Positions 33,038 to 48,946 of a DNA stretch of 64,000 nucleotides are shown here, in pieces. Below the pieces are notes generated by a model, which did not search any database, was not told the DNA's origin, and saw only the letters and a list, made by a program, of their open reading frames with translations. Source of the stretch: an uncultured Sulfitobacter sp. (GTDB lineage Bacteria; Pseudomonadota; Alphaproteobacteria; Rhodobacterales; Rhodobacteraceae); the NCBI GenBank assembly GCA_947502265.1, contig CANMZB010000004.1, positions 124,001 through 188,000 of the forward strand, read 5' to 3'. Numbering within the stretch: position 1 is the stretch's first letter; the number at the start of each line of letters is the position of its first letter. The position numbers and the translations under genes are program-made.

Positions 33038-33433
33038 TCATTTAATCGGAAACGTTTCAAGCTTGTTCAGGATCGGACAATCGGGACGGCCATCACCGGC
33101 GCATTCCCGCACCAGATGGGACAGCGTATCGCGGATGTCCTGCAAGTCCGCGATCTTGCTTTCGATCTGCGCCAGATGCTCTTTTGCAATCGCGCGCACA
33201 TCGGCGCTTGCCCGGTTCTGATCATCCCAAAGCGCCAGAAGGTTGCGGCAATCTTCGATGGTAAATCCCAAGGCGCGCGCCCGCCCCAGAAAGGCCAGTT
33301 TGTGCATGTCACTGTCACGAAAGCTGCGATAGCCGTTCGTGTCGCGCAGGGGGGTCAGCAGCCCTATTTTCTCGTAATAGCGGATTGTTCTGGGGGGCAA
33401 TCCCGATTTTTTCGATACGTCTCCGATGTTCAT
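33038..33433 (-). CDS. cueR: Copper-responsive MerR-type regulator
   Basis: A 131-residue MerR-family activator that senses Cu(I) and switches on copA. The N-terminal winged helix (MNIGDVSKKSGLPPRTIRYYEKIGLL) is followed by a dimerisation helix and the metal loop with two Cys (ECAGDGRPDCPI) spaced as in CueR. A strong ribosome site (GGAGG) lies before the ATG, 10 nt after the copA remnant. The regulator is intact while its usual target next door is destroyed. Confidence 0.92.
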   Translation of the reverse strand: MNIGDVSKKSGLPPRTIRYYEKIGLLTPLRDTNGYRSFRDSDMHKLAFLGRARALGFTIEDCRNLLALWDDQNRASADVRAIAKEHLAQIESKIADLQDIRDTLSHLVRECAGDGRPDCPILNKLETFPIK

Positions 33434-33443
33434 CCGACCCCTC

Positions 33444-35335
33444 CTATTGCGCCGCAGCAGGCGCTAGGCCGTTCGCCGCGGTGTCTTTTGTTTGATCCTC
33501 TGCAAGGGCCGGGGCAATCCAGCGCAGGCGCAGGGCATTCGACAACACGAATACGCTGGACATCGCCATCGCCCCGCCGCAAGCGCGGGCGACAGTAACA
33601 ACCCGAACACCGGATAGAAAACGCCGGCAGCCACCGGAATCAGCAGTGCGTTATAACCGAACGCCCAGAACAGATTCTGGCGGATATTGCGCATGGTGCG
33701 TTGGCTGATGTGCAGGGCATTCACCACCCCGTTCAGATCGCCGGACATCAACACGACATCCACCGCTTCTATCACCACATCCGTACCGGTGCCAATCCCG
33801 ATGCCCACATCGGCATTCGCCAACGCAGGCGCATCGTTTATACCGTCACCGACAAAAGCAACCTTGTGCCCGCCGGTTTTCAATTTTTCAATCGCGTGCA
33901 CTTTGCCCTCCGGCAAAACCTCTGCGACAACTGTGTCGATCCCCAGACGGGCCGCGAGGGCATTGGCCGTGCCGCGGTTGTCACCGGTGATCATGGCAAC
34001 CTCAAAGCCCAGATCGTGCAAGGCGGAAATCACCCCGACAGTGGTGGGTTTGATCGGATCCGACACCGCGATCACAGCCGCGAGACGCCCGCCAATGACG
34101 GCATAAAGCGGCGTCTTGCCCGCCTTCCCCAACTGCTCCGCGATGGTATGGGTATCGTCCAGATCGACCCCTTCACGGGTCATCAGCCGGTCCGCACCCA
34201 CAAGAACCTTACAGCCCTCGATCATCGCGCTCACACCATAGCCGGTTATTGAGGAAAAATCGTCAACGGTGGTCACAGATTGTCCTGCCTGCTCTGCGCG
34301 GCGCACAAATTGCCGCCTCAATCGGGTGCTCCGACCTCGCCTCGACAGAGGCCACAAGGCGCAGGACCGCCGCCTCGTCAAAGCCGTTTCGAAGCGTCAG
34401 ATCGGTCAACTCAGGGCGCCCTTCGGTCAGCGTTCCGGTTTTATCCACGGCAATTACCTGCACATTGTCCAGCGCTTGCAAGGCGTCCCCATGGCGCAAG
34501 GACAGGCGATGATCAAAACCGCAACGCTGGCCACCAAAGCAAAACTGAGCGCAGGATCGGGACCAACCACAAGCCACGTCAGGAAGGTCAGCGTTGCCGC
34601 AGCCATGACCGCAGGTACGAACCACAGCGTGATACGGTTCATGAGATCCTGTATCGGCAGCTTCGCGCCCTGCGCCTCTTCGACCATGCGGATGATCTGG
34701 GCCAGTATGGTATCCCCGCCGACCTTTGTTGCCCGGAAGGTCAGCGTACCCGTACCATTGACCGTACTGCCGACAACTTCGGTATCCGCCACCTTTTCGA
34801 CGGGCACCGACTCTCCCGTGATCATGCTTTCATCGACATAGGACGCGCCTTGTACGACGGTCCCGTCAACCGCGATCTTTTCGCCGGGCCGGACCTGTAC
34901 CAGATCGCCGGTCACGATGTCATCGACAGACACTTCCACGGTTTCGCCGTCCCGCTCCACAAGCGCCGTTTTGGCACGCAGCCCCACAAGCTTGCGGATC
35001 GCCTCTTCCTTGGCGAGGTTCACAGCGGCGGAAACAACGCCCGGAACCGCTGCAAGCACATGTTCGACGCGCCCGACACAGGACGCGCAGGACATGTTTT
35101 CAATCGTGAAACGGTGGGTTTGCACGTCGGCAGGATAACCCGCAGCATCAAGGGCCGCGATCGCCGCATCTGTTTCAAAGGCCGGATCAACAGTGATACT
35201 GGCCGTTTCCGCAGCGAGATTTACATGCGCGTCCTGCACTCCGGACACCGCCGACAAGGATTTTTCCACACGCCCGAGACAGGGCGCACAGCTCATATCG
35301 CGCACACCGAAGGTTATTGTTTTCCCGCTTTACAT
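33444..35335 (-). pseudogene. copA: Copper-exporting P-type ATPase, multiply broken
   Basis: A CopA remnant with five visible lesions. Codon 2 at the expected ATG (35335, preceded by GAGGA) is TAA. Near 35011 the second heavy-metal domain jumps in frame to EAIRKLVGL, losing the first membrane helices. Near 34490 the CPC helix (ACPCAMG) joins [20 protein letters not shown] with a frame change. An extra base at about 34307-34309 and a missing base at about 33572-33575 shift frame again. Still readable are two CxxC metal domains (MSCAPC, MSCASC), the DKTGT phosphorylation site and the GDGINDAPA hinge. About 200 codons are missing relative to normal CopA. Confidence 0.9.
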
Positions 35336-35390: not shown

Positions 35391-36386
35391 TCAAGGCCTG
35401 CCTGCAAGAAATTCGGAATCGTCGAAATTACGGGCCCTGCCCTGATTTGGCCACCCGATATATGTCTGCCGCAAGTCCGTGCCATCGCGATGGATGAAAA
35501 GGGCGGACAGTCCGGTTTCCTTGACCAAGGCGGCACCTTTTTGCTGTCCCGAAACCATCAGCGCCGTCGCCCAGGCATCCGCCTCCATGCAAGTCTTGGT
35601 CAGAACCGTTACCGATGCGGGCGCGTCCGTCAAAGGGCCGCCGCGTGCAGGGTTCATCGTATGCGAAAGCCGCTTCGAACCGACATCGACCCAGTGCCGG
35701 TAGTCGCCCGAAGTGGCCACCGCGCGGTCATGCAATTCGATGATCGACAGGGGTGCCCGCACCGCAAAATCGGGTCGCTCCACAGCGATCGTCCACGGGC
35801 GGACATCCGGCTGCATCCCGCATGCGCGCATTTCGCCATCCAGACCGACAAGAGCATCGGTGATCCCGGCCCTGCGCAGCACCGTCATCATCTGGTCAAC
35901 GCCGTAACCCTTGGCGATGCCCGACAGGTCCAGCGAAAGAGGCGCCAGTTTGCGGACCTGCATCGTCTCGAAATCAGCTTCCAAGACCTCGTGCGTCGGC
36001 GCGCGCGTTTTGCCCAGGGCGGCGCGTATCGCCCGGCTATTTGCCTCTCGCGGGCCAAAGCCCCATGCGCCGGTAACATCCCCCATGCCGATGTCGAAGG
36101 CACCACCCGAAAGGCGCCCGACCTCCAGCCCCTTGGCAAGCACCGTCATCAATTCCGGCGGCGCGCAAATCCATGTGTCAACCGGTGCGCGATTAATCCG
36201 CATCAGATCGCTATCAGGTTTCCATGTAGACATTTGACGGTCCACAATATCCACGCTTTGGGCCAGCGCCGCGCGGACCGGTTCGGGATCGGTTGCCGCA
36301 GCGGTATAAAACAGCGCCGACCAACGGGTGCCCATGGTCGGGCCGTTCAATGCGTGACGCTTGAGATCAGTAAGTATCTTCGACAT
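35391..36386 (-). CDS. apbE: FAD:protein FMN transferase
   Basis: A 331-residue ApbE-family enzyme that attaches FMN from FAD to a Thr or Ser in periplasmic acceptor proteins. Family motifs seen are GTRWS, MSTWKPDSDL, SGGAFDIGMG, DLSGIAKGYGVD and the late ATSGDYRHWV with HTMNPARG. No clear signal peptide is visible. It overlaps the membrane reductase gene by 20 nt. The DUF2271 gene one gene further upstream encodes a protein with a flavinylation motif, its likely acceptor. Confidence 0.92.
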   Translation of the reverse strand: MSKILTDLKRHALNGPTMGTRWSALFYTAAATDPEPVRAALAQSVDIVDRQMSTWKPDSDLMRINRAPVDTWICAPPELMTVLAKGLEVGRLSGGAFDIGMGDVTGAWGFGPREANSRAIRAALGKTRAPTHEVLEADFETMQVRKLAPLSLDLSGIAKGYGVDQMMTVLRRAGITDALVGLDGEMRACGMQPDVRPWTIAVERPDFAVRAPLSIIELHDRAVATSGDYRHWVDVGSKRLSHTMNPARGGPLTDAPASVTVLTKTCMEADAWATALMVSGQQKGAALVKETGLSALFIHRDGTDLRQTYIGWPNQGRARNFDDSEFLAGRP

Positions 36387-38574
36387 AACGTCCCTCTGCT
36401 TTTAGTAACGCAGGTGTTAATCCGCCGGATGTCAGAATGTCCGCCAGCGCATCGGCCACCCCTGCGGCCATATCGCGACCGCCGCACACCAGAACCTGCG
36501 CGCCATTGCCGATTAATCCGGCAATCTGTGCCGCGTCACTGCGCAAGGCATCCTGTACATAGGTTCGCGTGCCGGTGCGGGAAAACGCGGTGGTGACCGA
36601 GGCAAGACGCCCGTCGCCCTGCCAAATCTGCAACTCGTCTTCGTAAAACAGATCACCATCGGGATGCCGCGCCCCGAAATAAAGATGCATGGCGCGTCCC
36701 GCGTGATTTCCCCGCGCAAAGCCTGCCAACGGACCGATCCCCGTTCCTGCACCGATCAAAATGACCGGTTTACGGTTCTTTGCAGGGCGAAAGTCGGGGT
36801 TGTGACGAATGAAGCCGGTTACGTTGTCACCGACGGCCATATCCAGAAGCTGGCCCGAGCAAAGGCCGCCGAGATGCCGGCTGACGCAGATTTCGATAAA
36901 TCCGTCGCCGCGCCCCGAGGCCAGCGAATAAAACCGTGGCGCATGCGAACCTTCGGGTATGACCCCAAGCAGATCACCGGGCGAAAACCTGCCCACACCA
37001 CGCCCCGCCAACCGCGCCCGAAGCCTGGGCTTGGGGATGGCAAAGCGCAGGATCGCGGCGGGGGTCTGCATCTTGCCACCATAATCGCGGCGCGAGATCA
37101 GGGACAACGTATGGCCGCGCGGGATCGCCGGGCGGTGCGACAGCTCCAATGGTTGACCAAGCGCTGCGCCCAGATCACGCCCCCAACGGGCGAACTCCTG
37201 TGGCGACTCGCGGTCAATCATCGCCACCGGAAACATCTGCGCCCAGCCTTTATCCGCGGCCATACGGGTCACATCGAGAGCAAAGGCGCAGAATTCCGGA
37301 AACTTCCGGTCACCGAACCCCAGCACGGCCAGCGGCATATGCGGGGCTTTTGGCAAGGCTGCCAGCCGGTCAAGGAACCCTTTGGCCGAGGCTGGCGCAG
37401 CCCCCTCGCCATAGGTGGCGGCCAATATGATCACGCGCCCGGACCGCCCATACCGGTCTGGCGCAAACTGCGACATGGGCGCGGCGTGAACCTTGTGGCC
37501 TATTTGCGTCAGGGCGGCATGCAACGTTGCGGCAAAGCCCCAAGTACTGCCCCCTTCACTGCCGACCAGCAGGATCGTGTCGGCCTGCCCTGCCGCGACA
37601 TTACCTTTGATCTGTGGCCGCGCATGGCGGGCCTGCACCCAGAGCACCACGCCAGTCACCGCCATGAACGGCGCACCAAGCGCCATCAATCCAAGAATTA
37701 CCCCCAGCCAAGCCATCCCCTGTCCGGTGTGCAGCATATAGATTGTCTCGTTCACGCGGTGCCACAGGCCGGCATCGGTCCAGACCAGCATCCCGCCGGT
37801 GCCCTGATCAATGTACCCCTCGCCAGCAGTTGTTTTAAGCGTGAACACATCTGTAGGGTCATTCGGATAGGGAAAGGTTAACGCGCGCAGGGTTTCCACC
37901 CGCGTTTCGCGCAGCAAAGACATCGTTCCCGGTGTAGCCCCTGTTTGCTGGCTGGTTTCGGTCGGGAACGCCGGAACGCGGCCTTGGGGGAGCAAATCAA
38001 AGGTGCTGGCGGTCATGAACAATGCCGTGGCCGATGACAACAGCAGACCCGCAACGGTCATCCGTGCCACTTCGACGTGCAACCGCCCCGTCAGCGGGCC
38101 ACGCAGGCGCGAGAAGAAGCGCCGCCACCCGCCAACGCGCCGGAAGGTCAGCATCAGGCCCGTGATCGACAGAACCAGAAGCGCCCCCGCCCCTGCTGCT
38201 GCGCTGAGCCGCCCCGCATCATCCAGAAACAGCGAGCGGTGCAGGTTGGTCATCCAGCGCCGGAAGGCGGACGGTTCATAATCGGCCACGCCAACACCGG
38301 TGGCGGGGTCGATAACCACTGCGCCCGGCCGTCCACCGTCGAAATAGAACGCGGTGATCCGCCCCGAGGGCGCGCGGCGGATCTGTTCAACACCGGGGTA
38401 AGCTATGGCGATGCGATCCGCCAGCGTGGCGACATTCAGGTCCGGCTCGGACTGCGCCGGTGCCTGCACAGCCTCCAGCGCAGGAAAGACGCCAAGCACC
38501 GCGCCGCTGAGCGCCATAACGGCAATCAGTAAAGCCGCGATCAGGCCGGGGAATTTATGCAGGGCGCGCAGCAT
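36367..38574 (-). CDS. PepSY membrane protein fused to flavodoxin and ferredoxin-reductase domains
   Basis: A 735-residue fusion. The N-terminal half is a PepSY-type membrane domain with helices near residues 8-30, 130-150, 170-190 and 290-320. A flavodoxin-like FMN domain follows (about 335-470, ILLVGSEGGSTWGF to AATYGEGAAP). The C-terminal NADPH-flavin reductase (about 500-735) shows FYSLASG, GAGTGIGPLAGF and VCGGRDMA. This is the layout of NADPH-driven transmembrane electron donors: cytoplasmic NADPH, FAD, FMN, then out across the membrane. It lies 23 nt downstream of the DUF2271 gene and overlaps apbE. Confidence 0.9.
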   Translation of the reverse strand: MLRALHKFPGLIAALLIAVMALSGAVLGVFPALEAVQAPAQSEPDLNVATLADRIAIAYPGVEQIRRAPSGRITAFYFDGGRPGAVVIDPATGVGVADYEPSAFRRWMTNLHRSLFLDDAGRLSAAAGAGALLVLSITGLMLTFRRVGGWRRFFSRLRGPLTGRLHVEVARMTVAGLLLSSATALFMTASTFDLLPQGRVPAFPTETSQQTGATPGTMSLLRETRVETLRALTFPYPNDPTDVFTLKTTAGEGYIDQGTGGMLVWTDAGLWHRVNETIYMLHTGQGMAWLGVILGLMALGAPFMAVTGVVLWVQARHARPQIKGNVAAGQADTILLVGSEGGSTWGFAATLHAALTQIGHKVHAAPMSQFAPDRYGRSGRVIILAATYGEGAAPASAKGFLDRLAALPKAPHMPLAVLGFGDRKFPEFCAFALDVTRMAADKGWAQMFPVAMIDRESPQEFARWGRDLGAALGQPLELSHRPAIPRGHTLSLISRRDYGGKMQTPAAILRFAIPKPRLRARLAGRGVGRFSPGDLLGVIPEGSHAPRFYSLASGRGDGFIEICVSRHLGGLCSGQLLDMAVGDNVTGFIRHNPDFRPAKNRKPVILIGAGTGIGPLAGFARGNHAGRAMHLYFGARHPDGDLFYEDELQIWQGDGRLASVTTAFSRTGTRTYVQDALRSDAAQIAGLIGNGAQVLVCGGRDMAAGVADALADILTSGGLTPALLKAEGRYVEDTY

Positions 38575-38597
38575 GGCAAGGTTCCTTTATTGTCGGC

Positions 38598-39068
38598 TTA
38601 CATGTCGTAGGTGAAATCACGGATGTAACGGCGTCCGCCCACCGGCTGCCCCGCGCCCGTTGTTGTCAGCGGGACGACGACTTCGGACGGGCTGTCGCGC
38701 ATGTCCTCGACCGCGGCGTCGATGTGCAATTCATAGCCCGCATCAAACAGCGCATCCGCCAGATCAAGCGTGATTTTCAGCTGCCGCCCCGCGCCAACGC
38801 TGGCACCGGTGATGCCGTTGATCTCGGCAAGGTTACCCGCAGTTGCGCGATGCCAGTCGCTTAGGTGCTCGTAATATTTCGACTTGCCCCCCGCCATCCA
38901 GAGGCTGCCCATATAGGTGCCCTGTCCATCTGTGACGTAAAGCGCGAGGTAAACGCCATCGCCGCCATACCGGTTCATGTTGGTGGTCAGGATAACCGGC
39001 TTGGCAATCGCCAGCGCCGGAACGGTAAGGGCCGTGGTCAGTGCCAGGGCCGACAGAAGGGCTTTCAT
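38598..39068 (-). CDS. DUF2271 periplasmic protein with a flavinylation motif
   Basis: A 156-residue secreted protein; the signal peptide ends near residue 22 (LAIAKPV). It matches DUF2271 (SLWMAGGKSKYYEHLSDW). Residues 84-90 read NGITGAS, which fits the ApbE acceptor pattern [D/N]xx[S/T]GA[S/T], so Ser90 is the expected FMN attachment point. It heads a three-gene operon with the membrane reductase and ApbE. Most likely it receives electrons from the reductase outside the membrane. The acceptor further on is unknown. Confidence 0.9.
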   Translation of the reverse strand: MKALLSALALTTALTVPALAIAKPVILTTNMNRYGGDGVYLALYVTDGQGTYMGSLWMAGGKSKYYEHLSDWHRATAGNLAEINGITGASVGAGRQLKITLDLADALFDAGYELHIDAAVEDMRDSPSEVVVPLTTTGAGQPVGGRRYIRDFTYDM

Positions 39069-39148
39069 CGGGTATCTCCATACTTGGTTGTTTCGGGTTC
39101 TGTTTGGCGCAACAGGCTGATGCCTGCCTGACGCGAAACCGGAATTCG

Positions 39149-39167
39149 CTTCAGCTTGGCGTCAGGT
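39149..39167 (-). promoter_or_regulatory. Operator copy 3, upstream of the DUF2271 operon
   Basis: On the minus strand it reads ACCTGACGCCAAGCTGAAG, 16 of 19 positions identical to copy 1 at 39681-39699. It lies 80 nt before the DUF2271 ATG in the direction of transcription. The two CTGA half-sites are spaced 11 nt apart, as expected for an OmpR-family regulator. Confidence 0.65.
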
Positions 39168-39185
39168 TCAACAAGGCAAGGAAAA

Positions 39186-39215
39186 GCCCCGCCGCGCGGG
39201 ATGCTGCGGCGGGGC
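39186..39215 (-). terminator. Intrinsic terminator after the small PepSY gene
   Basis: On the minus strand, GCCCCGCCGC, a 10-nt loop and GCGGCGGGGC are followed by TTTT. It ends 28 nt after the PepSY stop codon, making that gene a separate transcription unit from the DUF2271 operon. Confidence 0.88.
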
Positions 39216-39242
39216 AAAAAGGACAAACCAGACGAGCGGTGG

Positions 39243-39632
39243 TTACTCGATGACGGGCTTGGAGCCGGGCATGAACAACCCGTTGGCAGGCGGCTTCATC
39301 GTGCCGGTTGGCGCGGCATTCCGGTTGCGGTCACGATCATCATCATCATCGTCGTCATCATCGTCATACTCGAATTCGACCACAGCCAGCGTCGCGGGAT
39401 CGACCTTGACCTCGATCTCACGACCGGTCGCATCGCGGCCCTTGATTTCATAGCACCCATCGTCGGTCTTGATCCGACGCACGGTCCAGCCTCGGGCTTC
39501 GGCCATTTTCTGCACTGCTTCGCGCGGCTGCCAGTTGGCCATCGGCACGCGGCAATCGTCGTCATCGGCAAGGGCAGCACCCGCCGCACCAAGGCCAAGC
39601 AGTAGGGTCGCTGCAATCAGATATTTCTTCAT
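39243..39632 (-). CDS. Small secreted PepSY-domain protein with poly-Asp tract
   Basis: A 129-residue protein with a Sec signal peptide (residues 1-22, LLLGLGAAGAALA) and one PepSY domain (about 35-88, WQPREAVQKMAEARGWTVRRI onward). Ten consecutive Asp follow at about residues 90-99, then an Arg/Asn stretch. Both GAT and GAC codons are used in the tract, so the acidic run is not a pure triplet repeat. The tract may bind metal ions. It is divergent from the response regulator gene and carries its own copy of the shared operator. Confidence 0.9.
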   Translation of the reverse strand: MKKYLIAATLLLGLGAAGAALADDDDCRVPMANWQPREAVQKMAEARGWTVRRIKTDDGCYEIKGRDATGREIEVKVDPATLAVVEFEYDDDDDDDDDDRDRNRNAAPTGTMKPPANGLFMPGSKPVIE

Positions 39633-39680: not shown

Positions 39681-39699
39681 ACCTGACGCTTACCTGAAG
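39681..39699 (+). promoter_or_regulatory. Operator copy 1, upstream of the response regulator
   Basis: ACCTGACGCTTACCTGAAG, two ACCTGA half-sites 11 nt apart on the plus strand, ending 84 nt before the ATG of the OmpR-type regulator at 39784. It suggests autoregulation. Confidence 0.65.
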
Positions 39700-39714
39700 G
39701 GCCGCGACGATCTG

Positions 39715-39733
39715 CTTCAGGTGCGCATCAGAA
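39715..39733 (-). promoter_or_regulatory. Operator copy 2, upstream of the small PepSY gene
   Basis: On the minus strand it reads TTCTGATGCGCACCTGAAG, matching copy 1 at 14 of 19 positions, with the downstream half ACCTGAAG perfect. It ends 82 nt before the PepSY ATG. Together with copy 1 it forms an ACCTGAAG-N15-CTTCAGGT inverted repeat. Confidence 0.6.
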
Positions 39734-39783: not shown

Positions 39784-40443
39784 ATGCGTGTGCTGCTGAT
39801 CGAAGATGATACAATACTGGGGGCTGCGGTGCGCGACCAGATTGCTGCCGACGGGCATTCTGTCGACTGGGCCAAGCGGCTGGATGCTGCGGGTGAATAT
39901 CTTGATGTCGCGACCTATGATTTGATCCTGCTGGATCTGATGCTGCCAGACGGGCGGGGCCAGCCCTTCTTGCGGGCGCTCAGAAAGCGGGGCAGCGTGA
40001 CGCCGGTGATCATCCTGACCGCGCTCGACCAGATAAGCGACCGGATCGAGGGGCTGAATGCGGGTGCCGACGACTATATGGTCAAACCCTTCGATCTGAC
40101 CGAGTTGTCGGCGCGGGTATCGGCGGTGGCGCGGCGCTATTCGGGCAATCCGAACCCGTTGGTCACGCTGGGCGATCTGGAGGTTGACCTCGCCGCACGA
40201 TCCGTTCGACGCAACGGCAATCCGGTGGCATTGACCGCCCGCGAATGGGTGCTGTTCGAAGCGTTCGTGCAACGTCCGGGCCAGCTTTTGTCAAAGGCGC
40301 AACTTGAGGAGCGTCTTTATTCGTTCGAGTCGGAAATCGGGAGCAATACGATCGAGGTCCATGTCAGCCATTTACGCAAAAAGCTGGGGCGCGCACGGAT
40401 CGAAACGGTGCGCGGGCTCGGATATCGGCTGGGCGCGGCATGA
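39784..40443 (+). CDS. OmpR/PhoB-family response regulator of the flavin-transfer locus
   Basis: A 219-residue regulator with receiver domain (IEDD, phospho-acceptor Asp in LLDLMLPDG, LTALD, MVKPFD) and winged-helix output domain ending in TIEVHVSHLRKKLG and VRGLGYRLG. It resembles QseB/PmrA-type regulators. It overlaps the kinase gene by 4 nt and is divergent from the PepSY gene. Three copies of a putative binding site lie in the locus. Confidence 0.93.
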   Translation: MRVLLIEDDTILGAAVRDQIAADGHSVDWAKRLDAAGEYLDVATYDLILLDLMLPDGRGQPFLRALRKRGSVTPVIILTALDQISDRIEGLNAGADDYMVKPFDLTELSARVSAVARRYSGNPNPLVTLGDLEVDLAARSVRRNGNPVALTAREWVLFEAFVQRPGQLLSKAQLEERLYSFESEIGSNTIEVHVSHLRKKLGRARIETVRGLGYRLGAA

Positions 40444-41780
40444 AACTGCCCGGCTCTTTGCAAGGCCGGTTGGCGCTGGCGCTTGGGTCGGGGTTGACGA
40501 TGCTCTGGTTGGCAACATCGTTGGTCACGGCGATCCTGCTGCGCAGCGAAATGAACGAAGTGTTCGATTCCACGCTGGAGGAAACCGCGCAGCGCATCCT
40601 GCCTTTGGCGGTTCTGGACATCCTTGACCGTGAAGAAGAAGGTGCCAGCCAGCGCATTGCCACCCTGCGCCAGCATGAAGAGTTTTTCACCTACATCATA
40701 CGAGACAATCAGGGGCGTGTTCTGCTGCGCTCGCACGCTGCGACCGATGCGGATTTTCCCGCGTTCGAAGGCATGGGGTTTCGCCAGACAGCGACGCATC
40801 GGCTGTACTATGACGCAGCACTTCAAGGCACGATCACCATCGCAGTCGCCGAGCCGCTCAGCCATCGTGACAAAGTGGCGCGGGAGGTTTTGATCGGGCT
40901 TGCCCTGCCGCTGGTTGTCGTCATTCCACTTGGCCTGTTCGGGGTGTTCTGGATCGTCCGGCGCAGCCTGCGCCCCGTGCGGCGATTCAGCGATGCCGTG
41001 GCGTGCCGTGGCGCGCGCGATCTTTCGGCGGTTGGCGATGGCAACCTTCCGGATGAAATCAAACCGGTGGCAAATGCCGTCAACGAGGTCTTGGAGCGAC
41101 TTGCGCGCACGCTTGAGGCCGAACGCAGCTTTACCTCCAACGCCGCGCACGAATTGCGCACACCGCTGGCAGCCGCGCTCGCCCAGATCCAGCGGCTGAT
41201 GGCTGAAACCACGGACTCTGCTACATCCCAAAGGGCGACAGAGATCGAGGTTGCTCTCATGCGATTGACCCGCCTCTCCCAGAAACTCATGCAGTTGGCG
41301 CGCGCCGAAGGCGGACGGTTGCGCCGCGAAACCGAGACGGACCTGCGCCCGGTTTTGAACATGGTGCTTGCTGAATTCGACAAGACGGCAGGACCAGCGC
41401 GCATCGAAAGAGAAATTGCGAACGATCCTGTTTTGTCAGACCTTGATCCGGACGCCTTCGCAATCGTCGTTCGCAACCTGATCGAAAATGCCCTGCGCCA
41501 CGGCACCGGTGACATCGCCGTCAAATTGCACCTGAACGGGAAAGGGACGTTGCGGGTGATCAATGATGGCCTACCGGTTGCCCCCGAAACCCTGACGCAG
41601 TTGACCGCCCGGTTCGAGCGCGGGCAGACAAGCGCAAGGGGCAGCGGGCTGGGCTTGTCCATCGTGCAGGCAATTAGCGATGGGGCGCAGGCAACGTTGA
41701 CCCTGCATTCTCCGGTGCCAGGTCGCTCCGACGGGTTCGAAGTGGTGTTCCAACTGCCGCGTCGTGCGCAAGCGGGTTGA
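40440..41780 (+). CDS. Sensor histidine kinase of the flavin-transfer locus
   Basis: A 446-residue membrane kinase. Two transmembrane helices (about residues 10-33 and 145-170) flank a periplasmic sensor of about 110 residues. HAMP-like sequence is followed by the dimerisation box with the phospho-His (SFTSNAAHELRTPLAAALAQIQ), the N box (NLIENALRHG) and the G2 box (GSGLGLSIVQ). It is translationally coupled to the response regulator. Kinases of this QseC/PmrB-like class often sense metals or envelope redox state; the signal here is unknown. Confidence 0.92.
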   Translation: MKLPGSLQGRLALALGSGLTMLWLATSLVTAILLRSEMNEVFDSTLEETAQRILPLAVLDILDREEEGASQRIATLRQHEEFFTYIIRDNQGRVLLRSHAATDADFPAFEGMGFRQTATHRLYYDAALQGTITIAVAEPLSHRDKVAREVLIGLALPLVVVIPLGLFGVFWIVRRSLRPVRRFSDAVACRGARDLSAVGDGNLPDEIKPVANAVNEVLERLARTLEAERSFTSNAAHELRTPLAAALAQIQRLMAETTDSATSQRATEIEVALMRLTRLSQKLMQLARAEGGRLRRETETDLRPVLNMVLAEFDKTAGPARIEREIANDPVLSDLDPDAFAIVVRNLIENALRHGTGDIAVKLHLNGKGTLRVINDGLPVAPETLTQLTARFERGQTSARGSGLGLSIVQAISDGAQATLTLHSPVPGRSDGFEVVFQLPRRAQAG

Positions 41781-42538: not shown

Positions 42539-42678
42539 AACGGATTCAAGCAATCTCGCCGATCCAAACCCGAATTAGGAATGCGTCAAGAATAGCGGAA
42601 TATCGTCATCACGGTTCCATTTTAAAAGTTTGCGTGCTACGATTTTTCAGCATTTTCAATCTCCACAGGAGAGTTTCC

Positions 42679-43164
42679 ATGAAGTTAACGTTTCCCTTAA
42701 TCGGCGGCCTGCTGGTGGCTGGCTTGATTTCGACAGTTGCCATCAGTCAAAACAGTATTGATCCGGGCCACGCAAAAGCAATTGATGCGCGCCAGTCCCA
42801 TATGCGTCTTAACTCCTTTAATCTGGGCCTGCTTGGTGGCATGGCCAAAGGCGAGATCGACTATAATGCCGATGCCGCAACAGCCGCTGCGGAAAATCTC
42901 GTAGCCCTCTCGCGGATGGATGAATCGCGCTACTGGCTGCCTGGAACCGACATGGAGACCCTGGGCAAGGAGCAAACCGAGGCGCTTGCCAAAATCTGGG
43001 CCGACGACAGCGAAATCGGCGAGCGCATGAAAACCATGACCGAGACGAGCGCGGCTATGGCCGCAGCGGCGGGCGGCGGGATTGAATCCCTACGTGGCGC
43101 GATGGGGCCGCTGGGCAAGGCCTGCGGCGGTTGTCACGAAGATTACCGCACTTCGGATGACTGA
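42679..43164 (+). CDS. Cytochrome c'
   Basis: A 161-residue periplasmic four-helix-bundle cytochrome. A signal peptide covers residues 1-22; the single heme site CGGCHEDYR sits near the C-terminus, as in cytochrome c' (cytochrome c-556 family). The ATG at 42679 follows AGGAGAG; the frame extends 15 codons upstream without a signal. These proteins bind NO or act in periplasmic electron transfer. It is followed 56 nt later by a diheme cytochrome c gene. Confidence 0.9.
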   Translation: MKLTFPLIGGLLVAGLISTVAISQNSIDPGHAKAIDARQSHMRLNSFNLGLLGGMAKGEIDYNADAATAAAENLVALSRMDESRYWLPGTDMETLGKEQTEALAKIWADDSEIGERMKTMTETSAAMAAAAGGGIESLRGAMGPLGKACGGCHEDYRTSDD

Positions 43165-43220
43165 CATCTGTTGACAGACGGGCGGCGGGGAGCTTCCCTC
43201 CGCTCGACGACGGAGGCAAT

Positions 43221-44099
43221 ATGGCAAAATTCTTGCGCTATCTGATCATTCTGGCCGTATTCGGGGCGCTTGTATTCTGGTATTTAACACGCCCCCAGCA
43301 GGCCGGTTCCGCCCTGTTTGAAGGCTTGCAAGGCGCTCCTGAACGCGGCGAAAATGTGTTTTGGGCAGGTGGCTGCGCCTCTTGCCACGCCGCACCGGGA
43401 GCAAAGGAAGACGCGCGTTTGGTGCTGGCAGGCGGTTACCGCATGATCAGCCCGTTCGGCACCTTCGTCGCGCCCAACATTTCGCCCTCGGCAGAGGGAT
43501 TGGCGGGATGGAACGTGCAGGATCTTGCAAACGCCCTGCTGCACGGCACGTCCCCCGAAGGGCGACATTATTATCCGGCTTTTCCCTATGGCACTTACCA
43601 GCATATGGAGGCGCAGGACATCGTCGACCTCAAGGCATTTATGGACACACTTCCGCCCTCGGATGTCGCCAACACGCCTCATGAGGTAGGATTTCCATTC
43701 ACTGTAACGCGTGGCATCGGGTTGTGGAAACTGCTGAACCTGTCCCCCGACTGGGTGCTCGAAGACGCCGACACGCCGGAACTTGCGCGCGGGCGCTATC
43801 TGGTCGAGGCGCTGGGGCATTGCGCAGAATGCCATACCCCGCGTGATATGACCGGCGGGCTGGATCACAGCCAGTGGATGACGGGGGCACCCAACCCGTC
43901 GGGCAAGGGTCGCATTCCGGGAATTTCGCCTGACAAACTGGATTGGAGCGCGACAGACATCGCGTATTATCTGGAAACGGGCCTGACGCCTGATTACGAC
44001 AGCGCGGGCGGGCAGATGGTGTCGGTGATCGCCAATATGGGCCATTTGTCCAAAGAGGATCGTTCCGCAATTGCCACCTATCTCAAGGCTCTGCCGTAA
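43221..44099 (+). CDS. Membrane-anchored diheme cytochrome c
   Basis: A 292-residue protein. An N-terminal helix (residues 6-22) probably stays as an anchor. Two c-type heme sites follow: CASCH (about residue 53) and CAECH (about residue 197), one in each of two similar domains. It resembles diheme cytochromes of the alcohol/aldehyde-dehydrogenase type that pass electrons to the terminal oxidase. It is cotranscribed with cytochrome c'. Confidence 0.9.
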   Translation: MAKFLRYLIILAVFGALVFWYLTRPQQAGSALFEGLQGAPERGENVFWAGGCASCHAAPGAKEDARLVLAGGYRMISPFGTFVAPNISPSAEGLAGWNVQDLANALLHGTSPEGRHYYPAFPYGTYQHMEAQDIVDLKAFMDTLPPSDVANTPHEVGFPFTVTRGIGLWKLLNLSPDWVLEDADTPELARGRYLVEALGHCAECHTPRDMTGGLDHSQWMTGAPNPSGKGRIPGISPDKLDWSATDIAYYLETGLTPDYDSAGGQMVSVIANMGHLSKEDRSAIATYLKALP

Positions 44100-44298: not shown

Positions 44299-44862
44299 TT
44301 ACGCCTCCCACTCTCGCGCCAAGGGTTTGGAAATCGCCAAAAGGTCAATCGCGCGAGCGGCGATTTGCTCCACGATTTCTGCCACGCTGCGCGGGTTAAG
44401 GTAAAACGCCGGCACTGGCGGCAAGAGGATCGCCCCCATCTCGGTCACCGCGGTCATGTTGCGCAGATGCGCAAGCGTTAGGGGGGCTTCGCGCGTCAAA
44501 AGGATCAAACGCCGCCGCTCTTTTAACTGCACTCCTGCGGCGCGGGTCAGCAAATTGTCGTCAAGCCCATGTGCAATCGCTGCCAAGCTGCGCATGGAGC
44601 AGGGCGCAACGATCATCCCCGAAACCGGCACCGAACCAGAGGCGACACTGGCTCCGATATTGCCAATGTCATGGCAGCGTGTAGCCATCGCCTGCAAATC
44701 GCGCCACGCTGTTTCGCCACATTCCGCGGCCAATGTGCGTTCGGCCGCAGCGCTGGCCACCAGATCAACCTCAACCCCCATCGCCAGCAATTGCCGCGCA
44801 ACCGAGACGCCCAAACCCGCGCCAGATGCGCCAGCCACACCCAAGACCACACGCACGGTCAT
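44299..44862 (-). CDS. ubiX: Flavin prenyltransferase UbiX
   Basis: A 187-residue flavoprotein that makes prenylated FMN, the cofactor of UbiD. The start reads VVLGVAGASGAGLG with the flavin-phosphate loop; SMRSLAAIAHG and the C-terminal LLPPVPAFYLNPRS are UbiX signatures. Its ATG overlaps the stop of ubiD by 4 nt, so enzyme and cofactor maker are coupled. Confidence 0.95.
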   Translation of the reverse strand: MTVRVVLGVAGASGAGLGVSVARQLLAMGVEVDLVASAAAERTLAAECGETAWRDLQAMATRCHDIGNIGASVASGSVPVSGMIVAPCSMRSLAAIAHGLDDNLLTRAAGVQLKERRRLILLTREAPLTLAHLRNMTAVTEMGAILLPPVPAFYLNPRSVAEIVEQIAARAIDLLAISKPLAREWEA

Positions 44863-46355
44863 GACATGAGCCGCGACAAAAGATCAGCGGCAAATTTGGC
44901 ATCTTGCGGTGCGGTTTGCATCACGGTTCCCCATTGCCTGCTGGTTTCGCTGTCTATTTTAGTTGTGGCATCAATGCCCATCTTACCCGCAAGGCCGGGC
45001 CGGGGCGAGGCGAAGTCAAGGTAATCCATCGGCGTATTCTCCAGAAGCATCACATCGCGTGCGGGGTCCATACGCGTGGCCAGCGCCCAGGCGATATCAT
45101 CCCAATGTGCGGGGTTTATATCGGCATCCACCACCACGATCATCTTGGTATAGCTGAACTGCGGCAGCATCCCCCACAGGGCCATCATCACGCGGCGGGC
45201 CTGACCGGGGTAACGCTTGTTGATGCTAACCACCGCCATTCGATAGGAGCAGGCGGCGGGTGGCAACCACAGGTCATGAATTTCCGGAATTTGCGCGCGG
45301 ATGGTGGGCAAGGCAAGGCGGTTGAACACCTCACCGATGATCGCAGGTTCATCCGGAGGGCGGCCCGTGTAGGTCGACAAATAAATCGGATCACGGCGGT
45401 GGGTGATGGCGGTGATTTGCACCACCGGGAACGGTTCGGCGGGGTTATAATAACCGGTGTGGTCGCCAAACGGCCCTTCGGGAGCAAGGTCGGTTGGCGA
45501 AACCCAACCTTCCAACACAATCTCGGCCTCGGCGGGCACCATCAGCGGCACGGTTTTGCACGCCACAAGACGTGGGCGCATCCCGTTCAAGGCCCCTGCA
45601 AAGGTCAGTTCCGACACGGTTTCCGGCAAGGGCAGCGCAGAGGACAGCAAGGTTGCAGGGTCGGCGCCCAGCACAATCGCGACCGGCGTGGCCTCGTCTT
45701 GCCGCGCCCAGCTTTGATGGTGCACGGCACCGCCACGATGCGGCAGCCAGCGCATAATCAGCGTGTCACGCGCCAGAACCTGCGCACGGTAAACGCCCGC
45801 GTTATAGCGGTTAATGTCGCCTGCAACCGATCCATAAGGTCGCGTCACCACAACAGGCCAGGTAATCAGCGGCCCGGCATCCCCCGGCCAATGGGTTTGG
45901 ATTGGCAGGGCCGACAGATTCACATCCGCGCCCTCCAGCACCACGTCTTGCACGGGCGCTGCACGGATAACCTTTGGGCGGGTGGCCAAAGCGGCCTTTA
46001 GCATCGGCCAGCGCGACAGCGCATCGCGCAATCCATCAGGCGCAGAGGGCATACGGAGCGCTGCCAGAAACGCACCCAAATCACCCACGCGATCCAGGTT
46101 TATCCCCAGCCCCGCCGCAACCCGCGCAGGTGTGCCAAACAGGTTTACCACAACGGGTGCTGCGGCCTTGCGCCCACTGGCGAGAACCGGATGATCGAAC
46201 CGCAACACTGGCCCGCCTTTTTCCAGAACCGCCTGATGAACCGCTGTCATCTGATGCTGCACGGAAACAGGATCGGGGATGCTTTGCAGCTGATCAGTTT
46301 TTGCGCACCAGTCAAGGAAGGCGCGCAAGCTGATGAATGGGGGCAAATCGCGCAC
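44859..46355 (-). CDS. ubiD: UbiD-family decarboxylase
   Basis: A 498-residue prenyl-FMN-dependent decarboxylase, probably 3-octaprenyl-4-hydroxybenzoate carboxy-lyase of ubiquinone synthesis. Family blocks seen are INRYNAGVYRAQVLARDT, the catalytic EGPFGDHTGYY and KMGIDATTK. It is divergent from ubiTUV with an FNR-like palindrome between, which fits an oxygen-independent ubiquinone route. Confidence 0.93.
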   Translation of the reverse strand: MRDLPPFISLRAFLDWCAKTDQLQSIPDPVSVQHQMTAVHQAVLEKGGPVLRFDHPVLASGRKAAAPVVVNLFGTPARVAAGLGINLDRVGDLGAFLAALRMPSAPDGLRDALSRWPMLKAALATRPKVIRAAPVQDVVLEGADVNLSALPIQTHWPGDAGPLITWPVVVTRPYGSVAGDINRYNAGVYRAQVLARDTLIMRWLPHRGGAVHHQSWARQDEATPVAIVLGADPATLLSSALPLPETVSELTFAGALNGMRPRLVACKTVPLMVPAEAEIVLEGWVSPTDLAPEGPFGDHTGYYNPAEPFPVVQITAITHRRDPIYLSTYTGRPPDEPAIIGEVFNRLALPTIRAQIPEIHDLWLPPAACSYRMAVVSINKRYPGQARRVMMALWGMLPQFSYTKMIVVVDADINPAHWDDIAWALATRMDPARDVMLLENTPMDYLDFASPRPGLAGKMGIDATTKIDSETSRQWGTVMQTAPQDAKFAADLLSRLMS

Positions 46356-46411
46356 TGGAATTCCTGTTCGTTGGCTTGCCTCGCGCCTATCAGGAAAAAA
46401 GCGGGCTGAAA

Positions 46412-46425
46412 CTGACGATCGTCAA
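46412..46425. promoter_or_regulatory. FNR/DNR-type box between ubiD and ubiT
   Basis: CTGACGATCGTCAA contains the perfect palindrome TGACGATCGTCA and matches the Crp/Fnr consensus TTGA(T/C)-N4-(A/G)TCAA at all but the first base. It lies 56 nt before the ubiD ATG and about 100 nt before ubiT, so it can serve both. A Crp/Fnr-type regulator is encoded at 50252. Confidence 0.65.
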
Positions 46426-46522
46426 TTTGCTTTTGCCGACATGGCATTAGAAGAAAATAATCCGGCTGCGGGAAAAGCCCCGCTCAGGTGTGCAGGCCCA
46501 ATCGAATATTAAGGAACGTCAC

Positions 46523-47065
46523 TTGCCCCACCCCTCGGCACCGATCCCGCAGACTCCAACAGCGGTGGCCCTGCCCTTACGGCTCTTGCCGCTTGGGCCG
46601 CTCTCGCTGTCGCTGACGGCTTATTCGCGCAGTGTTGCACGCCGTCACCCCGGCCTGTTCCGCAGACTTGGCGCCTACAACCATACCCGCTTTGTGCTGG
46701 ACCCGACCGACCTGCCGTTTGTCATTTGCCTTGACCCGAACGGAGGCGTGCCGCGTGTTACTTTGACCCGTGGGCAGGGTGACGGGGCCGCCCGGATTGC
46801 AGGCCCGCTTGCCGCGCTTTTGGGGATGGTACATGGCGCGTTTGACGGGGACGCTCTGTTTTTTTCTCGCGATCTGGTGATTGAGGGGGATACATCCGCC
46901 GCCCTCGCCTTGCGCAATGCGATTGACGATGCTGAACTGGACCTTTCGCAAGAAATCACCCGGCTTTCCGGCCCGTTTGCAGCCCCCTTGCAGCGGCTTT
47001 TTGCCCTTATGGAACGCCGCAGCGGTGTCAGCTTAACACGCAGCAAGGAGGTGGACGCATGGTAA
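46523..47065 (+). CDS. ubiT: UbiT-type SCP2 lipid-carrier protein
   Basis: A protein of about 180 residues with an SCP2/sterol-carrier fold, matching UbiT, the lipid-binding partner of UbiU-UbiV in O2-independent ubiquinone synthesis. Typical sequence includes FVICLDPNGG, GDGAARIAGPLAALLGMVHGAFDGDALFFSRDLVIEGDT. A TTG start at 46523 is preferred because AAGGAA lies just before it; a GTG at 46490 is the alternative. It overlaps ubiU by 7 nt. Confidence 0.9.
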   Translation: MPHPSAPIPQTPTAVALPLRLLPLGPLSLSLTAYSRSVARRHPGLFRRLGAYNHTRFVLDPTDLPFVICLDPNGGVPRVTLTRGQGDGAARIAGPLAALLGMVHGAFDGDALFFSRDLVIEGDTSAALALRNAIDDAELDLSQEITRLSGPFAAPLQRLFALMERRSGVSLTRSKEVDAW

Positions 47066-48042
47066 TGGAAATCGTTTGCCCCGCAGGTACCCCCGCCGCA
47101 ATGCGCGCCGCCGTGAGTGCAGGCGCGCATACGGTCTATTGCGGCTTTGCCGATGAAACCAACGCCCGCAACTTCCCCGGTTTGAATTTCGGCCGGAACG
47201 AGATGCGCGAAGGCATTGCTTTTGCCCATGCCCATGGCTCACAGGTTTTGATCGCCATCAACACCTTTCCCCGCGCGGGGGATGAGGGGCCTTGGCACCG
47301 CGCGGTGGCCGATGCGCAAAGCTGCGGTGCAAATGCGGTCATTCTGGCCGATATAGGCCTGCTGGATTATGCTGCACGCCATCACCCCGACTTGCGCCGC
47401 CATCTATCGGTGCAGGCAGCGGCGGCGAATGCCGATATGATCAATTTTTACGCGGATACCTTCGGAGTAAAACGCGTGGTTCTTCCGCGCGTTTTGTCCG
47501 TGCCGGAAATCGCTGCAATCAATGCGGAAACAGCGGTCGAGACAGAGGTTTTCGTGTTCGGCGGGTTGTGTGTCATGGCCGAAGGACGGTGTTCTCTATC
47601 GTCCTATGCGACGGGTTTATCGCCCAATATGAACGGGGTTTGTTCGCCCGCCAGCCATGTCGACTACCATAATGACAACGGCGTGCTGGATGCGCGTCTT
47701 GGTGGCTACACGATCCACCGCGTGCAAAAAGATAAACCTGCGCCGTACCCGACCTTGTGCAAAGGCTGCTTTAGCACGACCGATAAAACCGGTCATTTGT
47801 TCGAGGATCCAGTCAGCTTGAACGCCGAACAGCTGATCCCGCAGTTGCAAAAGGCCGGAGTTACCGCATTGAAAATCGAAGGCCGGCAACGCTCGCGGTC
47901 TTATGTAGCGCAAGTGGTGCGCAACTTTCGCGCGGCGGTTGACGCGTTGGAGGCCGGTCAGCCGATGCCCGAAGGTATGTTGGCCCGGCTGTCCGAAGGC
48001 CAGGCCATGACCACCGGCGCCTACAAAAAAACATGGAGATAA
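47059..48042 (+). CDS. ubiU: UbiU, O2-independent ubiquinone hydroxylation subunit
   Basis: A 327-residue U32-peptidase-family protein. The four Fe-S cysteines are recognisable: GLCVMAEGRC, NGVCSPAS and CKGCF. The family N-terminus (EIVCPAGTPAAMRAAVSAGAHTVYCGF) is present. UbiU forms a heterodimer with UbiV that hydroxylates the quinone ring without oxygen. AAGGAGG precedes the ATG. It is followed 4 nt later by ubiV. Confidence 0.95.
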   Translation: MVMEIVCPAGTPAAMRAAVSAGAHTVYCGFADETNARNFPGLNFGRNEMREGIAFAHAHGSQVLIAINTFPRAGDEGPWHRAVADAQSCGANAVILADIGLLDYAARHHPDLRRHLSVQAAAANADMINFYADTFGVKRVVLPRVLSVPEIAAINAETAVETEVFVFGGLCVMAEGRCSLSSYATGLSPNMNGVCSPASHVDYHNDNGVLDARLGGYTIHRVQKDKPAPYPTLCKGCFSTTDKTGHLFEDPVSLNAEQLIPQLQKAGVTALKIEGRQRSRSYVAQVVRNFRAAVDALEAGQPMPEGMLARLSEGQAMTTGAYKKTWR

Positions 48043-48046
48043 GCGC

Positions 48047-48946
48047 ATGGATTTGACCGTTGGCCCCAACCAGTTCTTTTGGTCAGCCGATCGCTGGGCA
48101 GCGTTTTATGATGATCTTGCCGCAGCGCCCGTCAACCGTGTTGTTTTGGGGGAACTGGTCTGTTCCAAACGCCTGCCGTTTTTCCAGGACCGCATCCCCG
48201 ATGCAATTTCTACCCTGCTGACGGCTGGCAAAGAAGTGGCGCTGACCAGCCTTGCATTGGTGACGTTGAAACGCGAACGCAAACAAACGGCGGAACTGAT
48301 TGGAATGGGCGTAGAGGTCGAGGTCAACGACCTGACCGCGCTTGCACATCTGCCGCAAGGAACAGCGTTCTCGGTGGGCCCGCTGGTGAATGTTTATAAT
48401 GAAGGCGCGCTGGCGTGGCTTGCCGCGCGCGGGGCCACGCGGGTTTGCCTGCCGCCGGAGTTGCCGCTCACCTCGGTTGCCACATTGGCAAAGGCAGGGG
48501 CGGATTTGAGGGTAATGATTGAGGTGTGGGGCCATGGCCGCCTGCCGCTCGCCATCTCGGGGCGCTGCTATCACGCCCGGATGCACAACCGCACCAAGGA
48601 TAACTGCCAATTTGCGTGCGAGGATGATCCTGACGGGCTAGATGTGCGCACGCTGGAGGGCCAACCCTTTTTGGCGATGAACGGTGTGCAAACCCTCTCT
48701 GACAGCTATGCCTGCGTCGCCTACCAGATTGACGCGCTACAAGATGCGGGTGTTCGCGCCCTGCGCCTTTCGCCGCAATCAAACGGGTTTGGTGCGGTTT
48801 GCGGCCTCTATCGCCAGCTTTTGGACGGGCAGAAAACCCCCGCCCAAGTGACCGATGCGATTTGCCAACTGGATGCAAACGCCCGTCTATCGGACGGTTT
48901 TTTGACCGGCGACAGGGGCGTGGACTGGTCTGGTTCACGGACCTGA
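48047..48946 (+). CDS. ubiV: UbiV, O2-independent ubiquinone hydroxylation subunit
   Basis: A 299-residue U32-family partner of UbiU. Cys ligands are seen at GELVCSKRLPF and in SGRCYHARMHNRTKDNCQFACEDD, matching the 4Fe-4S site of UbiV. It lies directly behind ubiU. The ubiTUV set, ubiD/ubiX and the FNR-type box point to quinone synthesis during anaerobic or denitrifying growth. Confidence 0.95.
   Translation: MDLTVGPNQFFWSADRWAAFYDDLAAAPVNRVVLGELVCSKRLPFFQDRIPDAISTLLTAGKEVALTSLALVTLKRERKQTAELIGMGVEVEVNDLTALAHLPQGTAFSVGPLVNVYNEGALAWLAARGATRVCLPPELPLTSVATLAKAGADLRVMIEVWGHGRLPLAISGRCYHARMHNRTKDNCQFACEDDPDGLDVRTLEGQPFLAMNGVQTLSDSYACVAYQIDALQDAGVRALRLSPQSNGFGAVCGLYRQLLDGQKTPAQVTDAICQLDANARLSDGFLTGDRGVDWSGSRT

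Follow-up and report, generated by a model that had tools for sequence, protein, structure and literature searches.

A stretch of 64,000 nucleotides from an uncultured Sulfitobacter sp. (assembly GCA_947502265.1, contig CANMZB010000004.1), here called the window, carries at positions 35,391 to 39,632 four minus-strand genes, transcribed in the order PepSY_2 protein, DUF2271 protein, PepSY/flavodoxin/reductase fusion and ApbE flavin mononucleotide (FMN) transferase. The array is operon-like, the apbE and fusion genes overlap by 20 nucleotides (36367-36386), and the Pfam matches of all four products exceed the curated cut-offs. Divergent from this row and beyond its limits lie the genes of a two-component system (TCS; 39784-41780, plus strand), namely a response regulator (RR) and a sensor histidine kinase (HK). 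An earlier note made from the sequence had listed an acceptor motif, the fusion, the gene overlap and a PepSY_2 protein with ten consecutive aspartates, all of which were located in the open reading frames and by Pfam; it had missed the TCS with its DNA boxes, the in-frame stop that leaves ApbE without a signal peptide, and the genes for metal exporters that adjoin the module in some relatives.

The module is a PepSY-like flavinylation system as defined by Meheust et al. 2021, who described such systems with ApbE and DUF2271 and counted 1077 PepSY-like genes that also encode a NAD-binding domain (PMC8238504); the general idea is not new. Judged from sequence, the comparison of 156 loci adds the TCS and its boxes, a metal-gene context in some relatives and the signal-less ApbE. 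The locus represents a real and conserved, TCS-controlled variant of these systems.

Table 1. Genes and DNA boxes of the module (positions in the window)
Feature	Position	Strand	Evidence and remarks
PepSY_2 protein, secreted, 129 aa, Cys pair C27/C60	39243..39632	-	PF13670 E=2e-29
DUF2271 protein, Sec-type signal peptide, NGITGAS at 84-90, putative acceptor Ser90	38598..39068	-	PF10029 E=4e-31
PepSY_TM/flavodoxin/FNR fusion, 735 aa	36367..38574	-	PepSY_TM (PF03929 E=1e-32) + Flavodoxin_1 + NAD_binding_1
ApbE FMN transferase, 331 aa, without signal peptide	35391..36386	-	PF02424 E=4e-76
RR, OmpR family, PmrA/QseB-like	39784..40443	+	Pfam; best NCBIfam model PmrA, under its cut-off
Sensor HK	40440..41780	+	2CSK_N, HisKA, HATPase; HAMP marginally under cut-off
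Paired inverted box, RR/PepSY_2 intergenic	39683..39731	.	First of the two sites in the whole genome
Paired inverted box, upstream of DUF2271 gene	39117..39165	.	Other of two genome-wide places

Conservation of the module and its proteins

The comparison covered 156 fetched loci with a DUF2271 gene of the TCS type, a set that was not de-duplicated and in which some genomes occur twice. Where distinct proteins were counted, 138 DUF2271 proteins were separated by exact sequence, so that close strains remain; the 80 loci referred to by name are the most similar ones rather than a random sample, and neighbours are under-counted for loci at contig ends. Of the 156 loci, 155 contain at least part of the fusion, 146 ApbE, 141 the RR, 140 the HK and 133 the PepSY_2 protein; six of the ten loci lacking ApbE end at or near a contig end. 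Another 31 loci carry a DUF2271 gene of a different type, set apart by our own split according to gene order and profile score. They reach higher Pfam scores, their PepSY and reductase genes are separate, and their best RR and HK scores are 72 and 60 bits, whereas TCS-type loci with these genes scored 341 bits or more in the same run. DUF2271 was detected in 53 of 248 genomes of the family and 4 of 62 of the genus, and 97 plasmid records contain a relative, 71 of them typed as conjugative. The module is also present in Paracoccus denitrificans HAMBI_2443 and in Rhizobium johnstonii 3841, the latter lacking a strict pair of the boxes described below.

The fusion is a predicted transmembrane reductase with the order NADPH, flavin adenine dinucleotide (FAD), FMN, heme, heme. 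Four histidines that resemble heme ligands (H6, H112, H166 and H282) are invariant in 39 aligned fusions, comprising that of the window and 38 of 53 listed relatives. A profile search with the PepSY membrane part gave a sole significant PDB match, FoxB of Pseudomonas aeruginosa (7ABW, E=2.6e-8); phmmer with this part found no believable PDB relative, so that FoxB was reached by the profile alone. FoxB has a role in the use of ferrisiderophores. The PepSY transmembrane core is common to both proteins, but that of the module is fused to a flavodoxin and an FNR domain and would act with a DUF2271 partner. As the C-terminal part matches P450 reductase and sulfite reductase flavoproteins, by sequence as well as by fold, the comparison suggests NADPH as the electron donor. 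Foldseek with the AlphaFold2 model of the fusion (mean predicted local distance difference test score, pLDDT, 88) had diflavin reductases among the best 50 matches listed. The earlier proposal of an electron-export module, in which an ApbE substrate is combined with a NAD(P)H reductase in the membrane, is strengthened by the invariant histidines and the FoxB match.

The sequence NGITGAS in the DUF2271 protein, read earlier as an ApbE acceptor motif, is present and not a chance occurrence. Of 70 TCS-type DUF2271 frames, 69 retain its core [ST]GAS (TGAS 64, SGAS 5); the loss of the motif from an otherwise kept operon, which the earlier note had named as contrary evidence, was seen once in these 70 frames (TGGS in locus L064). 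Residues G88, A89 and S90 are invariant in 41 aligned sequences, L064 not included, and the leading residue is looser (N in 33, D in 20 and others in 16 of the 69 frames). For the DUF2271 protein of Amantichitinum ursilacus, ApbE-dependent flavinylation was demonstrated and was abolished by replacement of the acceptor threonine (PMC8238504). The AlphaFold2 model of the window protein had a mean pLDDT of 84; Foldseek with this model gave no match under E 0.001, and phmmer found no believable PDB relative of the DUF2271 or the PepSY_2 protein.

The PepSY_2 protein had been suggested to bring the metal by means of its ten aspartates. This role as a metal carrier was rejected because the run is not conserved, eight or more consecutive aspartates occurring in 10 of 165 homologous frames; what is conserved is the cysteine pair, which 95% or more of 54 aligned sequences retain. 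In the window, a small secreted PepSY protein stands beside an RR/HK pair, which is the arrangement of DbfQRS-like modules, and DbfQ of Vibrio cholerae is a small PepSY protein that adjoins a kinase and acts as its regulator (PMC12714742). A defining trait of such modules is a PepSY protein that binds the sensor part of the kinase and shifts it towards phosphatase activity. By this analogy, the PepSY_2 protein is a probable DbfQ-like regulator of the kinase.

Two-component system and paired boxes

By the genomic comparison, the divergent PmrA/QseB-like TCS belongs to the module, and its control over the module is strongly supported by a paired inverted box of the pattern CTGA N7 CTGA N17-21 TCAG N7 TCAG. 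The genome of the host (4.55 Mb) has this pair at exactly two places, both in the module, with 0 matches of the control. The related loci that have an RR number 139 (2.25 Mb), and 119 of them show at least one pair between RR and DUF2271. None of the 194 sites in these 139 loci lay outside the RR-DUF2271 stretch, taken with margins of 300 bases (800 more at the far end), and none was found in shuffled sequence that preserved base content only. A genome search for pairs with a fixed gap of 16 nucleotides and three mismatches found 0, because the sites in the window have another gap; a one-sided pattern with two mismatches did no better in the window than in shuffles, and a scan for sigma-70 promoters and terminators gave a result close to shuffle level.

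Each box consists of two pentamers spaced by six nucleotides, and the module RR presumably binds here. The arrangement is similar to the BqsR operator TTAAG-N6-TTAAG, with TTCAG/GTCAG as core in place of TTAAG (PMC4682146). DbfQRS/BqsRS-type modules likewise have a small secreted PepSY protein adjoining the TCS (PMC12714742), but in the window PepSY_2 is encoded divergently from the TCS and a reductase module is controlled. Our literature search, supplements excluded, found no description of a TCS tied to an ApbE/PepSY module; the lone text match to 'two-component' in PMC8238504 sits in the reference list.

ApbE without a signal peptide

Six codons ahead of the apbE start codon (ATG) lies an in-frame stop, so that no signal peptide can precede ApbE. 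In most relatives, the window included, the module ApbE starts about 14 residues before the GPTMGT stretch. Signal peptides were scored with a home-made hydrophobicity rule, not SignalP, using cut-offs of 2.0 and 1.6 set beforehand and a third, 1.5, picked afterwards; the window ApbE scored -0.3. For comparison we took 41 other ApbEs from module-bearing genomes, namely the nos-type one of the host and 40 of about 55 non-module matches. Scores of at least 2.0 were reached by 0 of 62 module ApbE frames, 31 of the 41 other ApbEs and 38 of 76 DUF2271 frames, and scores of at least 1.6 by 1, 40 and 73, respectively. At 1.5, one module frame (spurious, inside the domain) was opposed to all 41 other ApbEs, and 65 of 67 TCS-type and 74 of all 76 DUF2271 frames passed, the DUF2271 scoring having omitted eight frames without strict motif (seven other-type, one TCS-type). 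An arginine pair in the n-region was present in 1 of the 38 DUF2271 frames scoring at least 2.0, and the signal is Sec-like.

The module ApbE lacks a signal although its substrate has one of the Sec type, which is at odds with the assumed periplasmic modification of DUF2271. As ApbE has no export signal, FMN would be attached before Sec: the Sec substrate DUF2271 would be flavinylated while still in the cytosol and would cross SecYEG already bearing covalent FMN. We put this forward tentatively, as a reading that falls a little short of being probable. A seven-residue tag is enough for flavinylation (PMC12052999), and therefore an unfolded precursor could be a substrate of ApbE. The cytosolic ApbE of Klebsiella fumarate reductase has no signal peptide either, but its substrate is cytosolic whereas that of the module has a Sec-type signal (PMC12052999). 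Moreover, the module ApbE is the sole PF02424 match in 11 of 52 TCS-type genomes (G225 is 89% complete, the others at least 95%) and in 12 of 17 genomes of the other DUF2271 type. No description of a cytoplasmic module ApbE, or of flavinylation linked to SecYEG, was found in the literature, supplements again excluded.

ApbE might instead be exported by an unrecognised route and act on DUF2271 in the usual place, the periplasm. Most characterised ApbEs work there, the cytosolic examples having intracellular targets (PMC12052999), and four genomes whose module lacks ApbE have signal-bearing ApbEs elsewhere. Nevertheless, none of the 62 module frames has a believable signal peptide, the GPTMGT stretch mostly lies close to the start, and hitch-hiking of a folded ApbE-DUF2271 pair through the Tat system is unlikely because the DUF2271 signal is Sec-like. 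We consider such export unlikely.

The missing signal peptide would also suit an ApbE that acts mainly as a cytosolic FAD pyrophosphatase and feeds FMN to the flavodoxin domain, DUF2271 being flavinylated by another ApbE or never; FAD hydrolysis is known for some ApbE relatives (PMC4767422). This is hard to reconcile with the nearly invariant acceptor motif, with the 11 genomes in which no other ApbE was found, and with the A. ursilacus DUF2271 protein, which is flavinylated by the neighbouring ApbE (PMC8238504). In addition, Trp55, which 96% or more of 54 sequences share, aligns with a tyrosine of the solved transferase 5MGY; it probably occupies the flavin-stacking position whose change to asparagine yields hydrolysis. 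ApbE as a mere FAD hydrolase was therefore rejected and appears very improbable to us.

Several observations count against the overall reading that is favoured below. Loci L137, L138, L261 and L263 truly lack ApbE despite enough flank, L138 being also the single locus without the fusion, and so do 7 of the 31 other-type loci. The signal-bearing ApbEs in genomes G746, G826, G860 and G832, whose modules lack ApbE, make periplasmic flavinylation possible there. The host itself has a second ApbE with a Tat-like signal (L096, C16:6000-17000), which could act in trans. Of the 22 other-type ApbEs, 4 scored at least 1.5, and the A. ursilacus ApbE (WP_053936888.1) was termed 'signal peptide-truncated' (PMC8238504), which argues against a signal-less ApbE in that species. 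The strict [ST]GA[ST] motif was found in only 9 of the 31 best other-type frames, many of the remaining 22 having DGV[ST]xPT (DGVTGPT, DGVSAPT) or DGVSSAT, and the strict box pair is missing in 20 of the 139 loci with an RR.

A single origin of all signal-less ApbEs was not upheld: in a tree with 26 of the 62 TCS-type rows, 24 of these 26 and 21 of 22 other-type rows form separate groups. Other-type loci (L100-L139) show a looser acceptor region despite an often adjoining ApbE gene. Two ApbE-DUF2271 fusion proteins (L110, L115) both score as exported, unlike the separate module ApbEs. By eye, the surroundings of L096 look like a nos cluster, the second ApbE being NosX-type, and the host is probably a denitrifier; another place in the same genome (L097, C13:108000-115000) has Nqr-like genes, also by eye, with an ApbE fragment, and looks like a decayed Na+-NQR/apbE remnant.

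Metal-gene neighbourhood and proposed function

Nine annotated plasmid stretches from different records were inspected, and one more record came without a gene table. On Pseudosulfitobacter and Celeribacter plasmids, genes for a heavy-metal P-type ATPase and a VIT transporter continue the row past ApbE, and two PepSY_2 genes flank a ferric-reductase-like gene. Citrobacter and Marinobacter plasmids have a ferric-reductase-like gene and VIT, ApbE and the ATPase not being annotated; two further stretches have VIT nearby, another a P-type ATPase and a cation diffusion facilitator, and in the two others none of VIT, P-type ATPase or cation diffusion facilitator is annotated. Among the 138 distinct DUF2271 proteins, VIT was near 51, a P1B ATPase near 40 and a ferric-reductase-like gene near 20. 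Of the 111 loci whose fetched sequence extends 7 kb or more downstream, 52 have a P1B ATPase or VIT. A VIT gene occurred in 43 of these 111 stretches, mostly 12-19 kb long, which is far above the few percent expected by our estimate; the genomes have 0-5 VIT matches each (66 genomes, partial matches counted). All 44 ATPases scoring above 600 bits carry the motif TPC, which we take to be the P1B-5 signature. Substrates of P1B-5 ATPases are Ni(II) and Fe(II) (PMC7558416, Table 4).

As the row of the fuller relatives runs into P1B ATPase and VIT, the system most likely serves metal homeostasis or detoxification (Fe(II), possibly Ni/Mn) rather than simple iron scavenging. A metal role of the module, probably in Fe(II) homeostasis, is moderately supported by these neighbourhoods. 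It is weakened by the 59 of 111 loci with enough flank that have neither gene, and by the window, in which neither VIT nor a TPC-type ATPase lies beside the module, the one VIT match of the genome being on another contig. The near relatives L094, L118, L180, L182 and L183 also lack both genes beside the module (the stretch of L184 ends at ApbE), and the metal link is therefore borrowed from cousins. Furthermore, VIT neighbours of MsrQ-like/PepSY-like systems were read as uptake partners (PMC8238504).

One alternative is an iron-acquisition reductase, in which DUF2271-FMN would reduce Fe(III) and Fe(II) would then be taken up. PepSY-like clusters were so read because those of Shewanella and Caulobacter are repressed by Fur, and because of TonB receptors and VIT (PMC8238504), and insertions in Caulobacter CCNA_03155-03159 lowered fitness in ethylenediaminetetraacetic acid. 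Against this stands the dedicated TCS of the module, the boxes of which are restricted to it. Its frequent partners, P1B ATPase and VIT, are exporter families. The secreted DUF4198 protein that often accompanies PepSY-like systems (PMC8238504) was not found among 21 window proteins scanned with Pfam. We regard iron acquisition as rather unlikely.

Instead of a metal, the acceptor of the electrons might be a cytochrome c or some oxidised protein of the periplasm. Two candidate genes start about 0.9 kb past the kinase gene (42634-44099) and encode a cytochrome c' and another c-type cytochrome, yet neither cytochrome was the best match (at least 60 bits) of any open reading frame in the 156 loci, and we give a non-metal acceptor little credence. 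Further on (44299-48946) follow a flavoprotein and UbiD pair (UbiX/UbiD-like) and then SCP2 and two peptidase-U32 genes, these three presumably resembling UbiT/UbiU/UbiV of oxygen-independent ubiquinone synthesis. On the other side, downstream of apbE, a CopA-like P1B ATPase (33464-35305, minus strand) is broken into pieces in different frames; by eye, its HMA piece joins the A-domain and the usual intervening helices are gone. A MerR/CueR-like gene (33038-33433) comes after this remnant. Both were rejected as module members, as the ATPase is CopA-type and broken and near relatives have no such ATPase beside ApbE.

Taken together, we favour a TCS-controlled, metal-linked transmembrane reductase of the PepSY type whose ApbE loads FMN in the cytosol, and hold this reading as a whole to be probable, if by no means certain. 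In the diflavin part of the fusion, on the cytosolic side, electrons would go from NADPH to FAD and on to FMN, and two hemes in the PepSY helices would pass them over the inner membrane to FMN on Ser90 of DUF2271; this electron path is well supported by analogy with what is known of the family. This FMN would most likely have been attached by ApbE in the cytosol, ahead of the passage of DUF2271 through Sec. The exported DUF2271-FMN would then reduce a periplasmic metal, most likely Fe(III), or a metal complex. The RR/kinase pair, probably restrained by the PepSY_2 protein, would sense a metal-related envelope signal and, once activated, turn on both promoters via the paired boxes.

PepSY-like flavinylation systems (PMC8238504) share with the module a PepSY membrane protein, a DUF2271 substrate with [ST]GA[ST] and ApbE, a subset having a NAD-binding domain and some VIT1. 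What sets the module apart is the dedicated TCS, the module-specific paired boxes, the regulator-like PepSY_2 protein, the fused flavodoxin-reductase and the ApbE without signal peptide, as well as the P1B ATPase in part of the relatives; a DUF4198 protein was not found in the window. Export of ApbE is typical of these systems, though not strictly defining, and is the feature that the module ApbE does not show.

With this module, a reductase type of unknown purpose becomes testable as a self-contained unit with its own sensor and DNA box, which is plasmid-borne in many relatives and has metal-exporter partners in part of them. If ApbE acts before export, an exception would be needed to the rule that exported proteins are flavinylated in the periplasm at the expense of FAD exported there, and the wider question would arise of Sec substrates that carry covalent modifications. 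Loading of the cofactor before translocation would, if true, spare the bacteria supplying FAD to the periplasm.

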